A stretch of 64,000 nucleotides of DNA, taken from NCBI RefSeq assembly GCF_030463535.1, contig NC_132880.1:27230987-27294986 (forward strand), written 5' to 3'. Positions 1,930 to 62,749 of the stretch are shown here, piece by piece (position 1 is the stretch's first letter; the number at the start of each line of letters is the position of its first letter). The notes under the pieces are model-generated. The model was not told the origin of the DNA, made no database searches, and worked only from the letters and a program-made list of their open reading frames with translations. Made by a program: the position numbers and the translations under genes. The DNA comes from Salminus brasiliensis (lineage: Eukaryota > Chordata > Actinopteri > Characiformes > Bryconidae).

Positions 1930-3140
1930 TCCATTTATCCAAAATTATTGAGCAGCTACAGGGTTCAAACCATGGAGAAAATTAAAAATGTGCAAAAATG
2001 GAGAGACATGGTTTTCATTGGACAGCAGCGATATACTGTACTCTGCAAAAAATGGAAAGTGACAAGCACTTGATTCATTTTTGTTCACAAAGTAGAACAA
2101 AAATTGGCACAATACAATTGTATGCAAAGGTTTGGACACTCTTGTCAAGTCAAATCAAATTTATCTTTTTTTTACACCCTGATGTCACAAAGCAGCTTTA
2201 CATAGAAAAAAACGAAAGGAACAAAATAAAAGAGAACATACAGAACACAGTAGTAACCCCAAGTGAGCAAGCCAAAGTAAACAGTGGCACGCAAAGCTGG
2301 AGGAGGAAACCTTGGGTTGAACCAAGACTCAAGACTCGACACATCGTACACTCGTACACATTCCAGTTTCACCATGTTGAAATTATAACATTGTTTTACC
2401 CAGTTCCCCTTATTTCAGGGTATCATAATGTTTAGTACTGAGCAATGATAGGCACATTAAAACAATCGTGTTGTTGCATGTCTCTGTTGAAGTCTGCGGT
2501 ATGGGCGTCACCATACACCTCCAAAGTCATTGTGCTACAGCCTTCAGCAGTTACATCTTCAGAGAAATTAAATATGCCAGTACCTGTGGCATCCATACAT
2601 ACCCAAAGTATGACACCCCCACCACCATGTTTCACAGATGAGATGTTTTAGATCGTGGGCAGTCCACACTTGCTCTTGGATCCACCTGCAGTGAAGGTCT
2701 TCCTTGGCCTACTAATCCCTCTGCGTTTAATGAGCTCACCAGTGCTCACATATCTTTTTAATGACATTCCACACAGTTGAGTTTGGTAATCCCAAGGTTT
2801 GACCGATGTCACTAATGGGTTTCCTCTTGTTTTTCAGCCTTTTAAGAGCTTCTTTGATTTTCATTGGCACAGCTTTTGCTCTCATGTTAAACAACGGCAA
2901 AAACACCTTAAATGGTGTTTGAAAGCTTAGAAGCAAGCCTTGGTGTCTTATGTCCGCACTAATGAAACAACTGAACACACCTGAGTAATCATAAACACCC
3001 GTGAAGCCAAATGAGAATGAAATAAAAGTGTTGTAATTTCAACATGAAATGGAAAATATATACAAACACCCTTAAATTAAAGTGTAATTAATCACATTAG
3101 ATTGGTTTTAGTTTAACATTTGAAACTGTTGAGCAGAAGG
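1930..3140 (-). mobile_element. Tc1/mariner-type transposon remnant
   Basis: On the minus strand, 2978 to 2736 encodes a Tc1-like N-terminal helix-turn-helix part (KEALKRLKNKRKPISD, then GLPNSTVWNVIKK), and 2635 to 2432 encodes a mid-transposase part with KHGGGGVILWVC, the usual Tc1 'GGGSVMVWG' block. The 'gtatgcaaaggtttggacac' at 2119-2138 is typical of fish Tc1/mariner terminal sequence. The frame is interrupted and no intact DDE catalytic triad is present, so the element is dead. Confidence 0.75.
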
Positions 3141-3351
3141 GCATGTCGAAGAAAAGGAAAGGCAATTTTTTACATTTTCCTAATTTAAAAATGTTATGCC
3201 ATCCCTTATAGCAAACAAACAGATTACAGCACAACCTCTATTCATAATTTTATATTAAACATAAAATGTACCATAACCCTTGTACATGCAACAATTGATC
3301 CCCACCCCAATATGTTAAGCAAAAACATTTGCACACAACCATAACAGTAAA

Positions 3352-3356
3352 ACATA

Positions 3357-3387
<31 letters not shown>

Positions 3388-3405
3388 TTATTTTTTTTTT
3401 TTTTA
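3352..3405. repeat. (TA)n followed by T-rich tract
   Basis: A run of TA dinucleotides (3352-3379) passes directly into a nearly pure T tract with scattered A. Simple-sequence repeat with no other feature. Confidence 0.9.
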
Positions 3406-3439
3406 TTTACACCCATACTATGTTCTTGATTAATATATT

Positions 3440-4000
3440 AAATAAAAATAAACATGGCTCCCCCTCTTAGTTTCAGCAGGTATTGCACATAGATGAACCA
3501 TGTGCTTTGGCTGAGCTCTGCCCCTCACCTGATGCTTTTCATGAGACTTAGCTTAGCTTAGGCCTATCCCTCTATGACTACTCTAAAGGGTGCTACCATC
3601 ACCATGCATTGTGGTGGGGAGGGTGTGTCATACCATCTAGTCTGATAGCCAGAAAGCTCTATTTTGGTTTCATGAAACCAAAGAACCATCTTCCAGTTGA
3701 CATTGGAGTTTCCCACATGCTTTTGAGTGAATTGTAGTCAAGCTTTAATTCTCTTTGGCGCTTTTCCATACAGCTCTGACTAGTAAAGAACCCGAGAATT
3801 TCTTTTCAGTCTATTTCTCAATGATGGATTTTCAGTGAGTTTCAGGGATTTTTTTGTATCCATCCACTGGACTGGAGAGTTGTTTTGTTTTCATGGTTTA
3901 TTAGTAGCCTGGAATACTGATTAACCAGTGACTGGACCTTCCAGACAGGTGTCTTTATATTATACTCACTTGAGACACATTTACTGCACTCTGAACACTG
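3440..4000 (-). mobile_element. probable Tc1-like remnant, badly decayed
   Basis: The plus strand carries phrases typical of reverse-complemented fish Tc1 transposase: a 'caccatgcattgtggtgggg' block, then 'ttggtttcatgaaacca', 'ttcccacatgcttttg' and 'agctctgactagtaaagaa' in the usual order (about 3600-3800). No open frame remains. The boundaries are approximate and the assignment rests on pattern recognition only. Confidence 0.4.
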
Positions 4001-9860: not shown

Positions 9861-9900
9861 GTGACTCCACAGATGTTTTGTGAAAGACAAGCCCATCACC

Positions 9901-10905
9901 ATGTTGCCCAGCCAGATGCTCTTGCTTGTCTACATCTTTACGTTCCTAGTTGGACTCCCTGCCAATATCCTTGCCTTCTGCACCTTCTGCCGCAAGATTC
10001 ACCGCAAACCTGCACCAATTGACATCCTTCTGCTTAACCTCACCATCTCTGACCTCGTCTTCCTTGCATTCTTGCCCTTTAAGATGAAGGAGGCTTATGA
10101 TGGCATGGTTTGGTTGATGTATGACTTCCTGTGTCCCCTCAGCAGCTTCATGTTCTTCTCTACCATTTACACTAGCACATTCTTCCTGACGGCAGTGAGC
10201 TTTGAGCGCTACTTGGGCGTTGCTTTCCCAATCCGATATGCGTTGTACCGTCGACCTCGCTATGCAGTGATTGCTAGCGTCTTCTTCTGGCTCGTGGGAA
10301 CTGGCAACCTCAGCATTGTTTACATTGTGCCATTTTTGCCTTCGTGCAGTGGAAGCAATAATGACTGTACTCAAAACTGTAGTGCAAAACAACCTGCTCT
10401 GACAAGGTGCTATGACAACTTCACCCAAGAGCAGCTGGATATTCTGCTCCCAGTCCGCCTGGAGCTCTTCCTGGTGCTCTTCTGTGTACCTTTCTTCATC
10501 TGCTGCTTTTGCTACATCAACTTCATACGGATTCTGTCTGGCTTGCCCCACATTGGCCGGCGTCGGCGGCTAAGGGCCATTGGGCTGGCCCTGGTTACTC
10601 TGATTGTGTTTGCTGTATGTTTCGGGCCCTATAATGCATCACACGTGGTAGGCTTCATTCATGAGGGAAGTGAGAACTGGCGCTCGTGGGCTTTGGCATT
10701 CAGCACCCTCAACGCCTGCCTGGACCCTATGATCTTCTACTTCTCATCATCAGCAGTAAGGAGTGCCCTTAGCGGCTTTGTGAAGGGACTCGGGGAGAAG
10801 GTTCATGTCCTGAGATGTAAGAAGCTTCAGTGTTGTCCTCTGCAGATTTCCAAGACTGAGAAATACAGAGAACCACCTCCACCTGATGACCTGAAAGGTC
10901 CTTAG
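9901..10905 (+). CDS. ffar2/ffar3: free fatty acid receptor 2/3-like GPCR
   Basis: Encodes a 334-residue class A receptor predicted to sense short-chain fatty acids at the plasma membrane. It is close in length to human FFAR2. Seven hydrophobic segments are visible. Landmarks are TM2 D51, the TM3-ECL2 cysteines C78 and C170, the E102-R103-Y104 motif followed by LGVAFP, and NACLDPMIFY in TM7. The carboxylate-binding residues known from FFAR2 are kept: R186 (in LLPVRLEL), H248 (in YNASHVVG) and R261. The ATG at 9901 (MLPSQM) aligns with the human start MLP; an in-frame GTG at 9880 is not needed. A good acceptor ends at 9860, so a 5'UTR intron is likely. Unusual: extracellular loop 2 is about nine residues longer than in human FFAR2 and has three extra cysteines (149, 156, 160) and an NCS sequon. 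Some segments look more like FFAR3 (TM1, TM3) and others like FFAR2 (ERYLGVAFP), so the exact paralogue is uncertain. Confidence 0.92.
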   Translation: MLPSQMLLLVYIFTFLVGLPANILAFCTFCRKIHRKPAPIDILLLNLTISDLVFLAFLPFKMKEAYDGMVWLMYDFLCPLSSFMFFSTIYTSTFFLTAVSFERYLGVAFPIRYALYRRPRYAVIASVFFWLVGTGNLSIVYIVPFLPSCSGSNNDCTQNCSAKQPALTRCYDNFTQEQLDILLPVRLELFLVLFCVPFFICCFCYINFIRILSGLPHIGRRRRLRAIGLALVTLIVFAVCFGPYNASHVVGFIHEGSENWRSWALAFSTLNACLDPMIFYFSSSAVRSALSGFVKGLGEKVHVLRCKKLQCCPLQISKTEKYREPPPPDDLKGP

Positions 10906-13178
10906 CAGAGGCCAATAAATTGTTGAGAAAACATTATCTAGGGAGGATTTCTAGCTATGCTATCTGTCTAGACAACTGGCAAATATAGACAAAATACACA
11001 TCATAATGATGCAAACGGCTGATAATTGAATAGAATGTATGCTTAATATGTCATCACATAATGGAATCTGCCATGGTGTTTTAATTAAATGCAGTTAACA
11101 GTTTGAAGTGTTTTGGACAGTTTAAAGGCTTTTCACATTTGGAAATGCCACTTTCTAATATTTATTCATTATAATTGTGGTTGTTTATTTTTTGGAGCCA
11201 GACAATTCTAATTCAGAGTTATTTATACATGGTAGTTACAGGTTGACCTAAGCCAGTATTTAAATATCCTAATTCCATAAGCAAGAGGTTTCACATACAC
11301 CCCATCTCCTTGTTTCTGCATTCTTCCCATAGAGGAGTATTTTATATTTATATACTGTAGTTTTGTAGGTCTAGACTGTTTTCTTACCCTGTTCTTCAAG
11401 GGTCAGGCCTCCACAGAGCATGTATTATTTGGATGATGGGTCATTATTAGCACTGCAGTGACACTGTGGTGGCGTGCTAATGTATGTTGCGCTGGTACGA
11501 GTGGATCGAACACAGGTTGGTTGTCCACCAACCAGAAATATCCAGCCAACAGCTGCCTGTGGGCAACATCCTGTGACCACTGGTGAAGGTCATTACCTCC
11601 TTTTGGGAAATATCACATCTAGTAAATGCTTTTTGTAGGCAGGTCTTTATCAGTCCATAGGACATTGCATTTATCTGACTCCGTTTGAGGTCATATGTAA
11701 TACAGAACAGGGTACAGCCACTGCAGAGTCTGCAAAATCTTCCTGAAGGTCTTTTGCAATAAAACTGTGGTTTTGATTAGCCTTCTAAGCAATCCTGCTA
11801 GCAAGCCTTTCCTTCAAAAAGCATTAAAACCTTAATCATTCCTGTTAACTGTCATTGTCACTCAATTAAATTAGGAACTGAGCACATGGCTACCTGGAAA
11901 TGATTTGCTATCTGCTTATAGCTTTATCCGGTTTTGTGGGCACTGGTTTTTACAGAGTGCTTTACAGATGCTTAGGGAAAGGTTAGAGGAGTCAGAGTGT
12001 AAGCTTTGAAATCAGACTTTTTCTAACGATAATTGTGATCAATCCATAACCCAACAAGTTAATTTGAGTATTGGAGAAAAAAGCAAAAATAAAGCACTAA
12101 TCTTGCTTAAAATCTTGAAAATATGTTTCTTCCTTAACTTCATATCTCAGTTCAACTTCTACATTCTTTTAGTTTTCTTCTCAATCATTAATTTATTCTA
12201 CCAGTCCCTCATCATGTTGTACAAAGTTTCTTCACCTGTAACCATTGTTTATATTTGTGACATAAGTTGGGTCTTTAAAGTAGATGTTCCAGCCATGTTG
12301 TTTTTTTTGCAATGTAGGTTTAGAGGTCATCATAATTCTAATGTTTTAAAAGGGTTTTTTATGAGGAACTGGAGTTTTGTTTCTTTGCTAGACAAAGTCT
12401 TACAGAAGATCTAGCCCCCTTATTATTGACTGATGATGTCAAACACATCAAGAAGGAGTTTTCACCACATATTTTTTCAGCTGGATTGCAAATTTGGAAT
12501 ACAAATAATCACTGGGGTAGACGAGAACCATTTGAAATAGAGAACATGCCAAAAAGTATCTAAATTGGTGTTACCTTTATATTGGACATCTGTTTTTTGA
12601 GCCTACTCTGGCCCAAATTATAAAATTACAGCTATTGGAGGAAATAAAAATGACATTTTGAAACTGTTTTCCTCTTTTTATGTTACAATTATTTGAATCC
12701 TGTCTATTCAAATGTCCATCCAAGGATTACATCCATGTAATGCCACTGGGTTTGGAATTGAAAATTTGATTTGTTTGATTGCTATTTTTTTTTTTTTTGA
12801 TCATTTGTTTCCACTTTGTCCTTGTAAAGTGTCCTTGTAAAGACAAGGGCTAGATAAAAATGACACATCTAAATAACTAAAACAATGACTGTAAAAATCT
12901 AATGAAGTGTTATTGAAGTATTACACAGACCACAATTTACTTCCCAAAGTTTTGTATGTAATTAGAACATGCATGAAATGTAATACCAATTGTTTAAATA
13001 AATAAATAAAATAAATACATATAAAAATACAAACATTCTCGATTATGAAATGAATAAATAGATAAAATAGTAAAAAAAAAAAAAAAAAAAGCAAATCCCT
13101 GATGTTTGACCCCAGTAAAAAAAAAATTACTGGATAAAATAGAATGGAAAAAGTCTACTGAACTCTCCTGGGCATCAC
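10906..13178. other. 3' flank of the receptor gene, otherwise non-coding
   Basis: AATAAA occurs at 10914 (probably too close to the stop) and at 11758-11763, the better polyadenylation candidate. The 116-codon frame at 12064-12414 is AT-rich, lacks an ATG at its start and has no domain, so I do not call it. A run of A and AT-rich repeats lies at about 12995-13095. Confidence 0.5.
11440..11590 (+). repeat. fragment of a common teleost dispersed repeat
   Basis: Contains in order 'gcagtgacactgtggtgg', 'gctggtacgagtggatcga', 'ccaaccagaaatatccagcc' and 'cctgtgaccactggtgaagg', which I recognise as pieces of a short non-coding repeat common in otophysan fishes. Its middle is deleted. The family name is not known to me. 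Confidence 0.5.
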
Positions 13179-15085
13179 TCAGCCAGGAATTGCACCCAGG
13201 CTTTCCACAGTAAAGAAAGTTTTCTGAAGAAACTCCTTAAGATTTTTTTGCGTTTTCTGTGTGACTTTTTTAGGAGGTTTTTCTCTGCTGGCCTGGTGTT
13301 TCCAGGATCCTCCTGTGAGCATAGGATGATGATTGCAAAAGTCATCCCATGATTTTAGTGAATGAATCAGCACAATGTTGTGGAAAAACATCTCAGGATT
13401 CCTGATGACCTCTGAGAACAGGATTGCTGCGACAGCTATGGCATCCTCTGGGCTTCTCACAATGGAGTCCACTTTGTTGTGGTTGCCCATCATGTAATAG
13501 AACAGAGGTTCACTGCATTTCTTGCTAAAAGTTGTTGTTGGCTTTAATTTAGCATAAGACAGTTTCCTCTCATCAAATCGCATGATCTGATGAAGCTTAT
13601 TGGAGCCAAGAGAGTGTTTGTACTGCGGAACAACATAGAAGTCATTTCTCTGCAACTGGAGAACATATATCCCTATCTTCAAATAAACATCGTCCCTTTG
13701 TGGATTTTCTGCCCACTTACTTATGAGAAAAGAAGCATTTTGAGCATACTCCTGAAACTCCCTGTTTACGAGGGCTGTAATGCTGGTGCCAGACTGCAGA
13801 GTTATAGTTTCCATAATCGGTCCATCATCTTTTATGATCTCATGTCCAAGGTTAGCAATCCGTTTGATTTCTGGTATGGCTTTATCTTTCTCCCATGAGG
13901 TACACACTGTAGTTCCATCTTGCATGATCAACACATGTCTTGCATTGCTGGGTTCTATAGCATTCGAAGATCCAAGATTGACTCTGTCTGATTTCTCTGA
14001 AAGTGTGAAAGTGTCTTTCCAATTAGGAGGCCAAAATTTCCTCTGCATCATTTCACTGGCGTTGAGAGACAGGCACATTGGCGGTTTGTCTTCTTTCTCC
14101 TCTGGAGTGGTCTGTGGAAATAGTCAGAAATAATAGTTCAACTGTACAGTTTACAATTACCCCCAGTATCTAGTTTATAAAAGCTTTACTTTGTTCTTCT
14201 GTAACAACCAAACTTCTGCTAATGTGCATTTATTCTAATAATATATAATGCTGTGTACACATACAGTGCTGTGCAAAATTTTACATATTGGAAGATTTTT
14301 TATATATTAAGTGTTTTTGTGAGTGAAATGGTTGACACATGAATTTGAGAAGTTTTATTTTAAGTACACCTTTTATTAGATATTTACATGGATACATGTT
14401 TTTTTTTTCTCACCGTGTCCGAACAAACAGGGCCTTCAGCTCCAGCTCCATTAAAATTGTCCGCAGAATTCTTGGGCTGATGGTAGTCGCTGTAGATTTT
14501 TGCATTTTGATTTAGTTTCAGTTTTCATACAGTGTAGTTAAAGCTCAGTAGCTGGAAAAGTCTGCTAGCTTCTCAAATCTGCGAGCCTTAAAATCTACTT
14601 AAAAAAAATAACAAGAATCAACATACATGGACCATGGTATCATCATTATGTCGAAAAATATGAAATACACTTAAATGTACCTGTTTTTTCTTCGCTTATG
14701 TGTTTCAGGTACGTCATCAAGTGTGAAAGAATTATTGAGTAATGGTCTCTTCTCACTGCATTTCCTAAACAAAAAGAGATCAGAGTACAGTTTGACTCCA
14801 CGTTAGTGCTATGTTGTCATTATGGATCACATGATCTAAAAATGATGCAAAATTATCCTCTGATGAATGCAAGCGCTATGTTCAACAAGAAATACTGTCA
14901 ATGTACGTTTGCTTAATATTGTATGTAATTTGTAAGTCATTATTATGCATTCCATGCACTTATCATGCACAAATCATGGTATAGTAATACTTCTGTCAAA
15001 TTCCAACAAAACACATTCTGAACTTACTCGGAAAACATCTGAGAAGATGAAGACTTGAACCCGTTGTGGCCGTTCTGTCCAGGTG
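13179..15085 (-). CDS. unrecognised multi-exon gene, 5' end not found
   Basis: Four minus-strand coding exons join in frame with consensus splice sites: 15085-15028, 14764-14681, 14489-14414 and 14111-13179 (stop at 13179-13181). They give at least 382 residues. Phases are 2, 2 and 0 across the three introns. The product starts with a low-complexity, Ser/Asn/Gly-rich part (PGQNGHNGFKSSSSQMF), then a basic patch HKRRKN that looks like a nuclear localisation signal, an acidic TPEEKED stretch, and a long globular-looking exon (LNASEMMQRKFWPPNW near its start, SWDDFCNHHPMLTGGSW near its end) finishing in a Lys-rich tail (KPPKKVTQKTQKNLK). I see no transmembrane segment, signal peptide or known catalytic motif. 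The first coding exon upstream of 15085 was not found. I do not recognise the family. The long intact frame and matching intron phases argue for a functional gene. Confidence 0.75.
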
Positions 15086-16029
15086 CTGCAATAAAAATAG
15101 CAACAAATTGACTGTGGTGTTCACTTGACTGATCATATGAATACTGTGTCATTCAATTAAAAGTGGAAGTATGGAGCCAAAAATATATTTGACATACTCA
15201 AATAGTGTGTACATTACTGTCAGAGCAAACCCCCCCAACTCCAAAATGACAAATTCACAGGAGATTAAAACCTTCTTGCCAGAGGACAATGCCATTTATC
15301 TCTAGTAATTATAATATATTTGTATTTGTCCATTCAACATGACATTTTAATATTATTATTGACACAATATTAAGGACAGTTGGTGTTGGTGCTTCATTCC
15401 AACAGAGACAATAAACCGGTAATTTTTTTTTTAAACAAATTAATTTCTTATTACATTTGTTATTACATTTTAACATTAAATACACTTTTACCACACCTCG
15501 GCTGCAACCATAGCCACATACATCTGAACTATATACACATTGTACTAATGAATGCACTACTAATGGTGGTGTGCAATTTTATATAATGTGGTAATACACA
15601 TATGGTTATGACAAATTTTGGAATCATTCTCTGTGTAATCTAGACTGCAGAATAAACCCTATATATAATATATATATATACCCTACATACAATATTTAGA
15701 CAACTGTGAAAACACAAAAATGTAATAATTATAAATAACATTAATATAAAAGGTTTTACAACCCCTCTGCTTCTTTCAGAAAATGCACCCCTCTATTCAG
15801 AACACTGTTGCAGTTACATGCTTCGAGATTCTCATGTTCATTTTTTGCATTGGAACAAAACAAAAAGCTGAAAAAAGTAAAATGTGACATCATTCCACTC
15901 AGAATTCCAGAAATGGACAGAACAAAATGAGAAAGAATATTCGGTAGCCCACATTTTACAAAAACAATAACTGAAATCAATCATGTTCTGTAACCATAAA
16001 TGAGTTTCTTACATTTCTGTATTTGAAAT

Positions 16030-17010
16030 TTAGACCACTCTTCCCTTGCCAACTGCTCCAGGTCTCTCAGATTTTAAGGGTCCCTTCAACCACTGTTTTG
16101 AGAACTCTCCAGTGTCCAGTCCTGGTTCAAGAGGGTTTGGAGCTGGACTCATTGCTGACCACTTCAAAATGCTCCAGCACTACGTCTTAATCCATTTCTG
16201 GTTGCTTTTTGAGGTTTGCTTTGGGTCATCGTGCTACTGGAAGACCCATGACCTCTAATGGAGACCTAGCTTTCTGACTCTGGGCCCTACATTGAGCTCC
16301 ACAATTCTGTTCTTACGATTTTATAATGTGAAACAGTCTATGCCTATCCAGTGCCAGAGGTCACAAAACACCTTTGTATGTCCACCTTACATACAAAGGC
16401 CTCAAAGGCCTTCTTTTAAGGCCTCATTTTATTTTTGTAAATGGTACAATGACTATTGTGATGACTCTATTTTGGTCTCATCTGTCCACAGTATATCACT
16501 GCTGTCCGATGAAAAACATGAATCTCAATTTTTGTTTGTTTTTAGTTTTCTCAGTTCTTTAAACCCTGTAGCTGCCCTGTCCACTGCGTAAATAATTTTG
16601 GATCAATAGACCAGTGTTTCTTGACCCTGCTCCTGGAGGCATCCTGCACTGAACATTTTAGTGCTTTTCCTGCTCCCACCACACCTGATTCAACTAATCA
16701 GCTCTTTAACCAGCCCTTTCAGAGTTGCAGGGAGTGTGTTAAAAATGTAGCGCAGGGTACTTCCAGGACCAGGGTTGAGAAACACTGGGACAGACCAGTA
16801 GAAATGCTGTAATTACTTGGAATTACTTTACACTGGAGTTTGTTTGGAAGTTGAATTTGAACAATCCTTCATAGTAATCTTCCATCAAATTTTCTCTTCC
16901 ATCCATGTCCAGGGAGGTTAGCTAAAGTGCCATGGGCTGTATACTTAATGACGTTGAGCAGAGTGGACACAGGAACATTAAGATCTCTGGAGATGGACCT
17001 GTAGCTTTGA
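16030..17010 (-). mobile_element. Tc1-like transposon remnant with a nested MITE
   Basis: The plus strand shows reverse-complemented Tc1 transposase landmarks in order: 'ggtctctcagattttaaggg', 'aatccatttctggttgcttt', 'tttgggtcatcgtgctactg', 'gacccatgacctctaatgg', 'gctttctgactctgggccc', 'ttttggtctcatctgtccac'. The frames are broken throughout. A 176-bp hAT-type element sits inside it at 16612-16787. Confidence 0.65.
16612..16787. mobile_element. hAT-type MITE
   Basis: 176 bp bounded by inverted ends: CAGTGTTTCTTGACCCTG at the left and CAGGGTTGAGAAACACTG at the right, which are reverse complements of each other but for one mismatch. Next to the ends the inner sequence also pairs ('ctcctgga' with 'tccaggac'). 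The flanking octamers caatagac (16604-16611) and ggacagac (16788-16795) agree at five of eight positions, consistent with a decayed 8-bp hAT target-site duplication. It has no coding capacity. Confidence 0.75.
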
Positions 17011-17169
17011 GATTATGCATACTTTTTTCACAACGTTGGTTCTCACATCTTTATTGTACATCAATATTTTTTGCTCTTCTTTATTTAAACTGGTTGAATG
17101 TGTGATTTCTATTGTATCAGCACCCTTTACTGTCCACAAATACAAATTACACAAGCATCACATGATTGA

Positions 17170-18850
17170 AATCCAACATTTTCTTTTTTTTTTTTTTTTT
17201 TACAATTTTGCTAATAATGTCCAGTCAATTGTTCAAGTTCTATGTGGAATAATATCTGGTTTGACCTTTTCTCTCAGCTTTTTTGTGTTTCAATTCAAAC
17301 ACAAACACAATAAACATGAATACCAAAGCATTTGTAACTGCGACACAATTTCTTAGAGAAGTGGTGCATTTTCTGAAAGAAGTGCAGAGGTGCCAATATT
17401 TAGATACATTTTCAAAGCTCCCCTCAAGGGAGTCTTATTCATAGTTCTCATCCAACACCTGATAACATCCAACAATGTTCAATCAGGTTAGCTGGTGACG
17501 GAATTGTCTGGGGGGAGGAGGGATGTGAAAGGCAATTTAAAAATATTTTTGATGCCTTGATCTGATGAACCTCATTGTAAGTATACAGGTGAGTTTATAT
17601 CTGTAGGTATATTAGTGTGTGTGTACCAGAGCTGAGTCTGAGTCAAGACCAAGACCGGGACACATTGAGTCTGAGTCAAGAAAAAGGCTGATAATAATCG
17701 ATTCTATAATAATCGAGACCAGATTAAGATTTTACCAAAGAAGTTTATAATTCAATGAACAATCATTTTTTATTTATTAAACAAAAATAACATTAAATAA
17801 TATGTAGCCTAAAATGATTATATATTTATATTATAGTCTTAGTGAAACTAAAACAATGTAACTTTTGGAATCAATAATGGGGAGGAGTCTTTTTCTCTTC
17901 TTCCCTGAAACACAGAATCAGAAATCACCACATAAAACCAACTGAGTATAATGCAGCAACATCCAGTCCATCCGTTTTTATTATTGTCACGCTTCTGTGT
18001 CCTCCCTCTGCCTCCGTCACTTCCAATCACTGCTACTCCCATAATCCTTCGCTTTCTGACACTACAGCAACAGGTCACCAGCCCACCAATCAGAGACAGC
18101 TTTCCAGATCTTCGTCACCAGACTACTAACTACACAAACCTGTTTACAGTCCAATCTGCTCTATAGAAACCTGATTGTTGATTACTCTCATCACTGTTTT
18201 TGCCTGCCATGTTGTAGGGCCTTGTTTTGCTCTTTTGGAGCTCCCTTTTGTTTTGTTAGCCTGGTTGTGTTATGTCTGCTTTTCTAGTTCTCAACTGGTT
18301 GCTTTTGCCTTTTTCTAACACTATTGTCTAGAACACTCTCTATCCTAGGTCATAAACTCATACCAAACATGAGAAATTAGTGTAAGCTTGAACCTGGTGT
18401 TTATCAGCACTCTCACTGCAGCGCATTCTGTGCACCATAAGCCTGCTTTGTTCCATATCTGTTCCATATGTTGTGCTATGTGATGCTAAACGGCATTGTG
18501 CACTGCATCCGCTACCCGGTGTAAGATGGACTTAATGGAGAAAGTAGAGAATTGAGCTTTTCAGCATGTTGATTTGTACACCTGACTATTGGTTAATTGT
18601 TAATAGTCAAAAAAAAAAAGACACACTGAACTTCACTGGTCTCTGCAAAAATTTCTGAATCCCCAGACAGAGACAAGACCGATTCCAAATGAGTTTGAGA
18701 CCGAGGCAAGACCGAGATCCAGTACTACAACACTATTTGTAGGCTAGTTTTGATAATAGATGTGTAAAGGAGGCGGAATAGTTCGGAAAACAGGTTACTG
18801 ATTTAGTTAAGTTTAAAATAGTCCTCCTAAAGTCTTTGAATATATGGCTA
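17170..18850. other. non-coding, with related GAGTCTGAGTCAAGACC-type motifs
   Basis: Two stretches rich in 'gagtctgagtcaagacc' (17632-17720) and 'gagaccgaggcaagaccgag' (18695-18718) bracket about 1 kb without a supported gene. They resemble the ends of a known style of fish non-autonomous repeat, but no clean inverted or direct termini could be drawn. Confidence 0.35.
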
Positions 18851-30669: not shown

Positions 30670-31600
30670 CTTAATTGAAGTGTGTGTAGAACATTCTGTG
30701 CATTCTGTGCATAAGCACCGTGAGTACATACCCGGAAGTTGGAATGCACAGCTGTATGCAATGAATGAAGATACATCCTACCCTGCTCTGCTCCTGCATG
30801 GCCACTCTATACTCTGCATCTAGCAGGATTCTGGTTTCCTGGCACAGATCCAACTTCCACATATTTTCACTATGTGGAGTTAAGGTCAGGACTTTGGGAA
30901 GGCCATTCCAAGAGCTTAATGTTAGCCCGCTTATCCATTCCACAACTACCTCTGATGTGTGTTTGGGGTCATTGTTCTATTTGATCACCCAGCTGTGTCC
31001 AAATTTCAACCGCCCGACTGATAGTATGAAGTTACTTTAGAATTCGGAGGTAGTCCTAATAACATCAGCTAGTGTTTGTGGTGTTGAAGGCATCCCATTG
31101 ACTCCTCCAAACATATCTCTAATCACTGTGGAAAAACAACTTAATTTTTGTCTTATCTTATCATAGAGTGTTTGTCCTGAAGGTTTTTACTTTGTCCATG
31201 TGGTCAGCTACTAACTTTGAGCTTGAAGGTATTGATTAAGGAGCAGGGACTTCTTTCTTGGATGGTAGCTTCTCAGTCCATGGTGATGTAAAAAAAAATA
31301 ATTTGATTGTAGACAATGACGCTGGGTTCTGGCTTTCAGTCTGGGTTTGGATATCCTACACCTCCCGATAAGTTGTACTTAAATACAGAAATTTGAACTG
31401 ATGATCTTGAAATCTGCAGTTGTTTTAGAAATGGCTTCAGAAGACATAGTCAACATAAGTCAACATAGTCAATATAAATCTACGCTCATCTTTTTGGACT
31501 TTCACAGTGTAGGGTGTGTTGGTGCTTTTAAACAGACCCTTTTTAGCACTGGCTACTAGTAGTCAGTGCATTTCTAAAGATACCTAAATGAAATAGCAGG
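30670..31600 (-). mobile_element. Tc1-like transposon remnant
   Basis: The plus strand shows reverse-complemented Tc1 phrasing: 'aggtcaggactttgggaagg', 'ttggggtcattgttctattt', 'ttctcagtccatggtgatgt', matching the arrangement at 40700-41600. The protein frame is destroyed. It is the same or a related family as the usf2-intron copy. Confidence 0.6.
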
Positions 31601-33039: not shown

Positions 33040-33990
33040 CAACCACAATCATGGGGAAGACTGCTGACTTGTCAAGAACACGATCATCAACTTCATCCAC
33101 AAGGAGGTCTGAAAGAAGAAAAGGTGGTAGGAAAGAGTGCACAAGTAATACAGAAGATCTCAGCAAAAAAGAATCATCAAGAAAAAGTCGACTCGGGAAC
33201 TTGGACGCAACACACATAGACGTTTCCAGGAAAGGGGCTACAACTGCTGCATTTCTAATGTCAAGCCACTTCTAACCCAAAGATGGCACCAGAAGTGTCT
33301 AACCTGGGCTAAGGAGAAAAAGAACTGGACTGTTGCTCAGTGCTCCACAGGTGCATTCAAGGAAATTTTACATTTGGAAATCAAGGTCCTAGAGTCTGCA
33401 GGAAGAGCAGATCCATAATCCAAGGTATCTGAAGTCCAGTGTGAAGATGGTTCGGGGTGCCACATCATCTGCTGGTGTTTTATCAAGTCCAAAATCAACA
33501 CTGCCGTCTACCAGGAGATTTCAGAGCACCATATGCTTCCATCTGCTATCCAGCTGTAAGGAAATGCAGATTTCCTTTTCCAGCACCTGCACACAGTGCC
33601 AAAACTAACTACCAAATGGTTTGCTGACCATGATATTACTGTGCTTGGTTGGTCAGCTAAATCTTCGGCCATGAACCCTATAGAAAATCTATGGGGTACT
33701 GTCAAGAGGAAGATGAGAAACATCTGACCCAGCAAAACAGATGACCTGAAGCAACTATCAAAGCAACCTGGGCTTCGATAACAATCTCAGCAGTGCCACA
33801 AGCTAATAGGCTCCACACAGATGCAGTATAGATCCAAATATTGAATATATAAATGAACATACTAGTCAGAGGTACATTTCTGTATTGTGCATCCTTTTCT
33901 GTTTTATGAAATGTTCTAATAATTTAAATACTGAATTTCTAACTTCCAAAGATGTGAAATGCCACTTAACGTGCAATAAATATATAACAA
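33040..33990 (+). mobile_element. Tc1-like transposon remnant, sense strand
   Basis: Starting at the ATG at 33051 (MGKTADLSRT) the sequence follows the layout of a fish Tc1 transposase. It has a basic N-terminal part, a central stretch near 33270-33500, and a C-terminal block near 33675-33720 reading MNPIENLWGTVKRKMRN, the usual 'LNPIENLWG' motif with the catalytic Glu. Several frameshifts and stops separate these parts, so no functional protein is made. Confidence 0.8.
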
Positions 33991-36015: not shown

Positions 36016-44454
<8,439 letters not shown>

Positions 44455-60950: not shown

Positions 60951-62195
60951 TTAATCATGGGCCATTCCATCAGATTTGTGCAGCCCTGTTGATTTAACTT
61001 TTGTGATGCAACTGGAACTCTCATCTATAGAGCGCTCTTGAGACTGTGACGTCTGTCCCTCCCAGTCTTCAGCTAGAGCTCTGCGGTAAACCCCAGACAG
61101 GCTTTGTTTGAACCGCTGCCTCATATCCAAACCCATACAGAAATAAAGGAGTGGATTCACGCAGCTGTTAAAATAGGCCAGACCCTTTGCTATGGGTAGA
61201 CCCACCTTTACTACAGGGCTCTTGCTATCCACCATTTTAGCCAAAAGAAGGCAGTGATATGGCCCCCAGCACAAGAAGAAGGCACAGACCAGGGACACAA
61301 GAATGCGGAGGGGCCGTGATTTGCGAGAGATGCGTGTTCGCCGTATCCCTAGACCAGCGAGGACATAGCAGGTAAGGATAACCAGGAACGGCAGCAGAAA
61401 ACCACAGGAGAAGCGAATGCTGTACAAGGCTAGCTTGGCTGTGTTGTCACCTTCAGTTGATTCCTTGACCTGTGGAATTCAATAAAATGGGCAGGTTGGG
61501 AAAAATGCATTGACATTTTTGCCAAACGGAGGAATGGTTAATAAATTATAGAAATCAATCTGCTTAGAGTTTGACCCCTAAACCTGCCTTATTTGCTTGC
61601 CAGTATTCCTAAAGAAGCACCAAAAGGGGAAAGCATTTCTTACCTCCAAGGAGCACTTGCTCAAGTTGTTCTTTCCAATGTAGACTTGCCGATACACGTA
61701 ATATGGTGAGCTGAAGATCACCGCCATAATCCAAACTCCTATGCTGACAAGTCGAGCTGCACGTAGAGTTCGCTGCTGTCGAGTAAACACAGGGCGCCAC
61801 ACGCAAATTGCCCGGTCCAGACTGATGATAGCCAGTAGAAAAACGCTGCAAAACATGTTGGCATACTTGAAGAAACCGTTGAACTTGCAGAGGAAGAGTC
61901 CAAAAGGCCAGTGATCATAGAACAGCTTCTTGACCAAAGAAGTGACACGAGTTAGGCAGAAAATGAGGTCGGCCACAGCCAGGTTGACCAGCCACACATT
62001 GGTGACATTGGCCTTTAGACAGAAGCCAGCCATCCAGATGACCACGGAGTTCCCAGTGGTGCCCAGTAGGATGGTTATGGTGTAGAGGACAATGGTGATG
62101 TTGTCCATAATAGCATCAATGTCCACAGTTGTTTTGTCGTTTTTGGCAAAGATGTTGCCATGGGGTGGGAGGACGAGGGTGCTGTTAGATGACAT
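60951..62195 (-). CDS. chemoattractant receptor, FPR/chemerin-receptor type
   Basis: Two coding exons, 62195-61644 and 61469-60951, join in phase 0 to 356 residues of a class A GPCR of the leukocyte chemoattractant group. Landmarks: N49 in TM1, NLAVAD (71-76) with D76, WPFG (96-99), TM3-ECL2 cysteines C103 and C181, D127-R128-A129 in place of DRC/DRY, SRPLRIL, FFLCWGPYH (248-256), and NSCVNPLLYFCMG (285-297). The C-tail is Ser-rich (EDWEGQTSQSQERS), suited to receptor kinase phosphorylation. Similarity to FPR1 (SRPLR, FFLCW, FNSC.NP.LY..MG.D.R.R) and to CMKLR1 (FLL.IISLDR, SIRF.CGFL.P) is about equally visible by eye. The nearby lim2 favours FPR, because LIM2 and FPR genes are neighbours in mammals. 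The ATG follows a T-rich acceptor (62201-62200 or 62198-62197), so a 5'UTR intron is likely. N-terminal sequons: N4 and N32. Confidence 0.88.
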
Positions 62196-62199
62196 TCTG

Positions 62200-62749
62200 C
62201 TAAAAAAAAAAAAAAAGAAATAATAATAATATATCAAATAAATGATCCAGATAGATTTCATGTTCCATAACATTTAAAACATAATTTCTCTTAAAAATCA
62301 CAGATTTGTGCTCTCGGGCAACAATTTTGTATTAATTTCCTTTAAAATGGTCTCTGGTCACATCCAGTCAGCAGAGACAATAGCAATGTCTCTGGGTTAG
62401 CATTTTATTGGGTAGCTCTACATTGTATATGTATACACTCTGTGGCTATTTAATCAAAAACAACTCTTATAAAGGGGCAATTTGTAGATTTACCGATCTC
62501 AGCATTCTGCTTTATTAAACATATCTGATTCAACTGATTTGTCTAATTATCAAGTAGAGACAAAACAGTAAAAGAACTGGCTGAAAAAATCATGGCCAAA
62601 ATGATCAAGGTTATCAGTATTATCACAGTATTGTTAAAATTTGCTGAAAACATGGTGATATCCAAACGGACATCATCTCAGAAGCATTATTTGGGTTTAC
62701 CTGCTGAATACCCACGTTATAAACAAGGTAATAACAAATGCATTATTGC

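Follow-up and report, generated by a model that had tools for sequence, protein, structure and literature searches.

Organization of the Locus

The analyzed window, a 64-kb stretch of Salminus brasiliensis DNA, carries on its minus strand a four-exon gene (Table 1), which is likely to be a real, single-copy gene of the host. Its surroundings include three regions recognized by Pfam. These are a rhodopsin-family receptor at 9895-10902, an exon of the PMP22/claudin family near 52.2 kb and a helix-loop-helix (HLH) exon at 37437-37724. Among ten long frames from the stretch upstream of the gene and its vicinity, the HLH exon was the only one recognized at the curated cut-off. We take the receptor to be ffar2, the HLH exons to be usf2 and the PMP22/claudin exon to be lim2, an assignment based on the first-pass annotation and on published synteny. 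In the available excerpt of that synteny work, ffar2b1, usf2 and lim2.4 form one group in zebrafish and in Mexican tetra (PMC10029227). The receptor, HLH and PMP22/claudin genes of the window resemble the order of this group; no counterpart of the four-exon gene at its position is mentioned in the excerpt.

Table 1. Exons of the gene model and repeated elements upstream of it (positions within the window).
Feature	Position	Strand	Description
Exon 1 of the model	15028-15085	-	58 bases; joined in frame; possible start at codon 16; alternatively internal
Exon 2	14681-14764	-	84 bases; joined in frame; bears the KRRKN nuclear-localization-like motif
Exon 3	14414-14489	-	76 bases; polar acidic linker; joined in frame; strong donor, acceptor without scoring support
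Exon 4 (last coding exon)	13179-14111	-	933 bases, 310 sense codons and TGA; predicted folded domain and basic C-terminal tail
Short dispersed repeat	15149-15193	-	just upstream of exon 1; at least 9 other places in the genome
Degenerate Tc1-like transposon	15761-17391	.	upstream of exon 1; 32-base inverted ends, 84% complementary

The neighboring receptor has at least 10 matches in the genome at E up to 1e-30, situated on two contigs (120 of the 444 candidates scored). These FFAR-like receptors are clustered, with at least seven on one contig (C1, 94.18-94.76 Mb) and at least three on another (C3), the latter including the window's own; this too refers to the 120 of 444 candidates that were scored. 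One FFAR-like match (L034) carries an in-frame TGA. A second rhodopsin-family receptor lies on the minus strand of the window in two frames (60951-61478 and 61578-62273), with either a frameshift or an intron between them. A minus-strand frame (L013) to the right of the window contains repeated NDPWG motifs and presumably belongs to an epsin (EPN1-like) gene.

Two repeated elements are located directly upstream of exon 1. The shorter one, about 40 bases long, overlaps a candidate start codon at 15152; the five copies inspected share TTTGGCTCCATACTTCC, on either strand, and the repeat may represent one terminus of a small transposon. Within the degenerate Tc1-like element, transposase-like fragments are found at 15963-16305. 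Further Tc1-like transposase fragments are scattered over the window at 2576-3794, 30704-31319, 33218-33814 and 40744-41152. No match to Rfam was obtained in the window at gathering scores.

Gene Model

The first-pass annotation had described four minus-strand exons that join in frame to at least 382 residues, and this is confirmed by the joined translation: frame 3 of the joined exons 1-4 (13179-15085) gives 382 residues and a single terminal stop, the TGA at 13181-13179, whereas the other two frames of the same join contain 15 and 26 stops. The junctions proposed at 15027/14765, 14680/14490 and 14413/14112 correspond exactly to the first and last intron bases. The KRRKN motif is also present as described, at residues 42-46 of the joined protein. 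The last exon, which had been called intact, is open throughout.

All four exons are preceded by AG, and exons 1, 2 and 3 are followed by GT. Scored against the minus-strand AG and GT sites of the window, the acceptor and donor of exon 1 rank in the top 1.8% and 2.3%, those of exon 2 in the top 0.7% and 5.2%, the donor of exon 3 in the top 0.6% and the acceptor of exon 4 in the top 1.9%. The ranks of six of the seven splice sites of the chain thus lie between the top 0.6% and the top 5.2%. The exception is the acceptor of exon 3, which is average, as 55% of the minus-strand AG sites score equally well.

Several 5' ends compete. An ATG at codon 16 of the joined frame would give a protein of 367 residues. 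Should exon 1 instead continue unspliced past 15085, translation could begin at an in-frame ATG at 15152, which follows a stop at 15155, and would give 405 residues. Further exons upstream of exon 1 are candidates for an alternative 5' end. The scan of 15086-37200 returned 60 internal and 19 first-exon candidates, none of which was linked to the four-exon gene, under score limits that would also pass over acceptors no stronger than the one of exon 3. Some of these candidates, such as 25634-25582, have good splice scores, and some, such as 25634-25527 and 22595-22480, have a phase that fits exon 1. At the 3' side, a scan of 1,378 bases from the stop onward found a single AATAAA, 982 bases beyond the exon end, and no ATTAAA.

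Coding Signal

Exon 4 is very probably coding: its frame runs for 314 codons from stop to stop, and it shows a 3-base periodicity. In 40 windows of 64 kb generated by a first-order Markov model, the longest run without a stop, whichever the frame, averages 152 codons and peaks at 231. The periodicity of the exon amounts to 4.6, whereas the 126 steps of 933 bases across the window have a median of 0.97. Of these steps, the one at 13001 overlaps exon 4; its value of 4.7 is the third highest, exceeded by the steps at 61501 and 10001 in receptor genes. A scan for exons with a codon model was disregarded, since its training set included exon 4.

That exons 1-3 belong to a real gene is moderately supported. 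Of the three-exon chains in the 1,089-base interval before exon 4, theirs scores best. When 200 segments of 1,089 bases were taken at random from the window, 5 reached this score and 162 contained no chain at all; in this search, the score limits had been lowered to admit exon 3, segments overlapping the gene were kept in, and short exons give little power. An intact frame and a coding signal, as looked for in a functional host gene, were thus both found. The proposal of a real gene stands well for exon 4, on run length and periodicity, and to a moderate degree for exons 1-3, on splice scores and the rank of the chain.

Homology Searches and Copy Number

The gene had been described as matching no family, and this was borne out in every collection searched. 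Searches of Pfam, NCBIfam, PHROGs and PADLOC with the exon 4 protein returned no family at E up to 10, with HMMER filters that drop many weak or remote matches. The exon 4 protein likewise gave no match among 177,635 distinct PDB sequences at E up to 10 and none among the phage records at E up to 1. With the joined protein, Pfam returned nothing at E up to 1. In the viral contigs, two pattern stretches were found, none confirmed, and in the prokaryote contigs six, none confirmed; both scans use exact short peptides, so they reach close relatives only. Neither result is informative on fishes. As possible identities, several genes of meiosis and of human chromosome 19 were weighed and dropped, as no resemblance was apparent. 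A missing Pfam match is common among fast-evolving vertebrate proteins, and the absence of a match therefore does not show novelty.

No straightforward transposon match emerged, either in Pfam or in the protein search of the fish's own genome. The features looked for in a transposable element protein were not found: neither exon 4 (E up to 10) nor the joined protein (E up to 1) matched a Pfam family, in searches that lose many weak matches, and the genome searches gave one match each. Origin from a multicopy transposon is unlikely, because exon 4 matches only itself genome-wide, by DNA and by protein. The DNA of 13179-14000 has a single match, itself, in the 1.07-Gb genome, a first look that could miss strongly diverged copies. 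The exon 4 protein has, again, itself as its single match in the same genome at E up to 10, so that no paralog was found by this protein search. Nor was a second copy found in the flanking 100 kb on each side (all 20 stretches searched), where the best E of 3.7 was taken as noise, or in 18 loci that include 6 kb beside the receptors of contig C1, where the best E of 0.31 was taken as noise as well; a strongly diverged paralog may lie in the rest of that C1 region.

Predicted Protein

By composition, the protein starts with about 90 polar, disorder-prone residues; the stretch between about residues 105 and 330 is less prone to disorder, and a basic tail follows. AlphaFold2 models made without an alignment had a mean pLDDT of 33.7 for exon 4 and of 33.5 for a 213-residue part, values that make them unusable. 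Judged from composition alone, exon 4 may form one folded domain of roughly 200-250 residues followed by the basic tail. The first 90 residues or so would constitute a disordered polar segment with KRRKN as an import signal.

Because this N-terminal segment carries the putative KRRKN import signal, the protein probably acts in the nucleus, a suggestion drawn from one short basic motif. Short basic motifs of this kind are common by chance. In the proposed mode of action, the folded domain would bind a partner, either a protein or a nucleic acid, while the tails would serve import and contacts. The basic motif and the composition point to a nuclear binding or adaptor protein as the most likely mode.

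Interpretation of the Gene

The reading we prefer, with a probability of about one half, is that a functional single-copy host gene encodes a nuclear protein, some 367 residues long at least, whose vertebrate or teleost family either evolves fast or has escaped cataloguing. A relation to a gene that already has a name is a possible, tentatively held explanation: the gene would be orthologous to a named vertebrate gene but too diverged to be recognized with the sensitivity of the libraries used, and so be known under another name or already be annotated in other fishes as uncharacterized. The interval does have conserved teleost neighbors, and remote matches are lost in the HMMER filters; against this stand the empty results at E up to 10 in both Pfam and the 177,635 PDB sequences, and the gene is not known to have a named ortholog. 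It is unlikely that exon 4 is real while exons 1-3 are partly wrong, with exon 3 misplaced, for instance, or the true 5' exons situated elsewhere, in which case the N-terminus and KRRKN may not belong to the protein. The weak acceptor of exon 3, the competing 5' ends and the 5 in 200 random segments with an equally good chain would fit such an error. The chain nevertheless ranks best among the three-exon chains of its interval, and three of the four acceptors lie within the top 2% of AG sites.

The repeats directly upstream, the distance to the poly(A) signal and the several start candidates, none of them settled, might also be expected of a recently dead gene whose last exon is still unbroken; the open joined frame, the intact AG and GT at all exon boundaries and the coding periodicity of exon 4 make this very unlikely. 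Single-copy domesticated genes do occur in vertebrates, and transposon relics lie nearby. A transposon or virus-derived gene, now domesticated and in single copy, is nonetheless very improbable, given its spliced structure, the lack of any match in Pfam, PHROGs and the phage records, the lack of a confirmed relative in the viral contigs, and the lack of a repeat family of the exon 4 protein in the genome itself. Nothing in what was observed is a sign of a new kind of system. A stronger version of novelty, in which the gene would represent a nuclear protein family restricted to teleosts or to the order, with a fold in its C-terminal exon that has no known relative, is improbable.

According to a study of zebrafish, shorter length and fewer exons are among the traits of orphan and teleost-specific genes (PMC3599513). 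The conserved teleost-specific and orphan genes of that study are likewise protein-coding and without a recognized family. Their lineage restriction was shown by genome comparison, whereas the present gene was examined in a single genome.

The preferred reading of a functional host gene presently has the status of a well-supported gene model without an identity. If it proves to be a diverged ortholog, naming the gene closes an annotation gap. Should the gene really be confined to some fishes, it would provide a clean single-copy case for the origin of nuclear proteins beside conserved neighbors.
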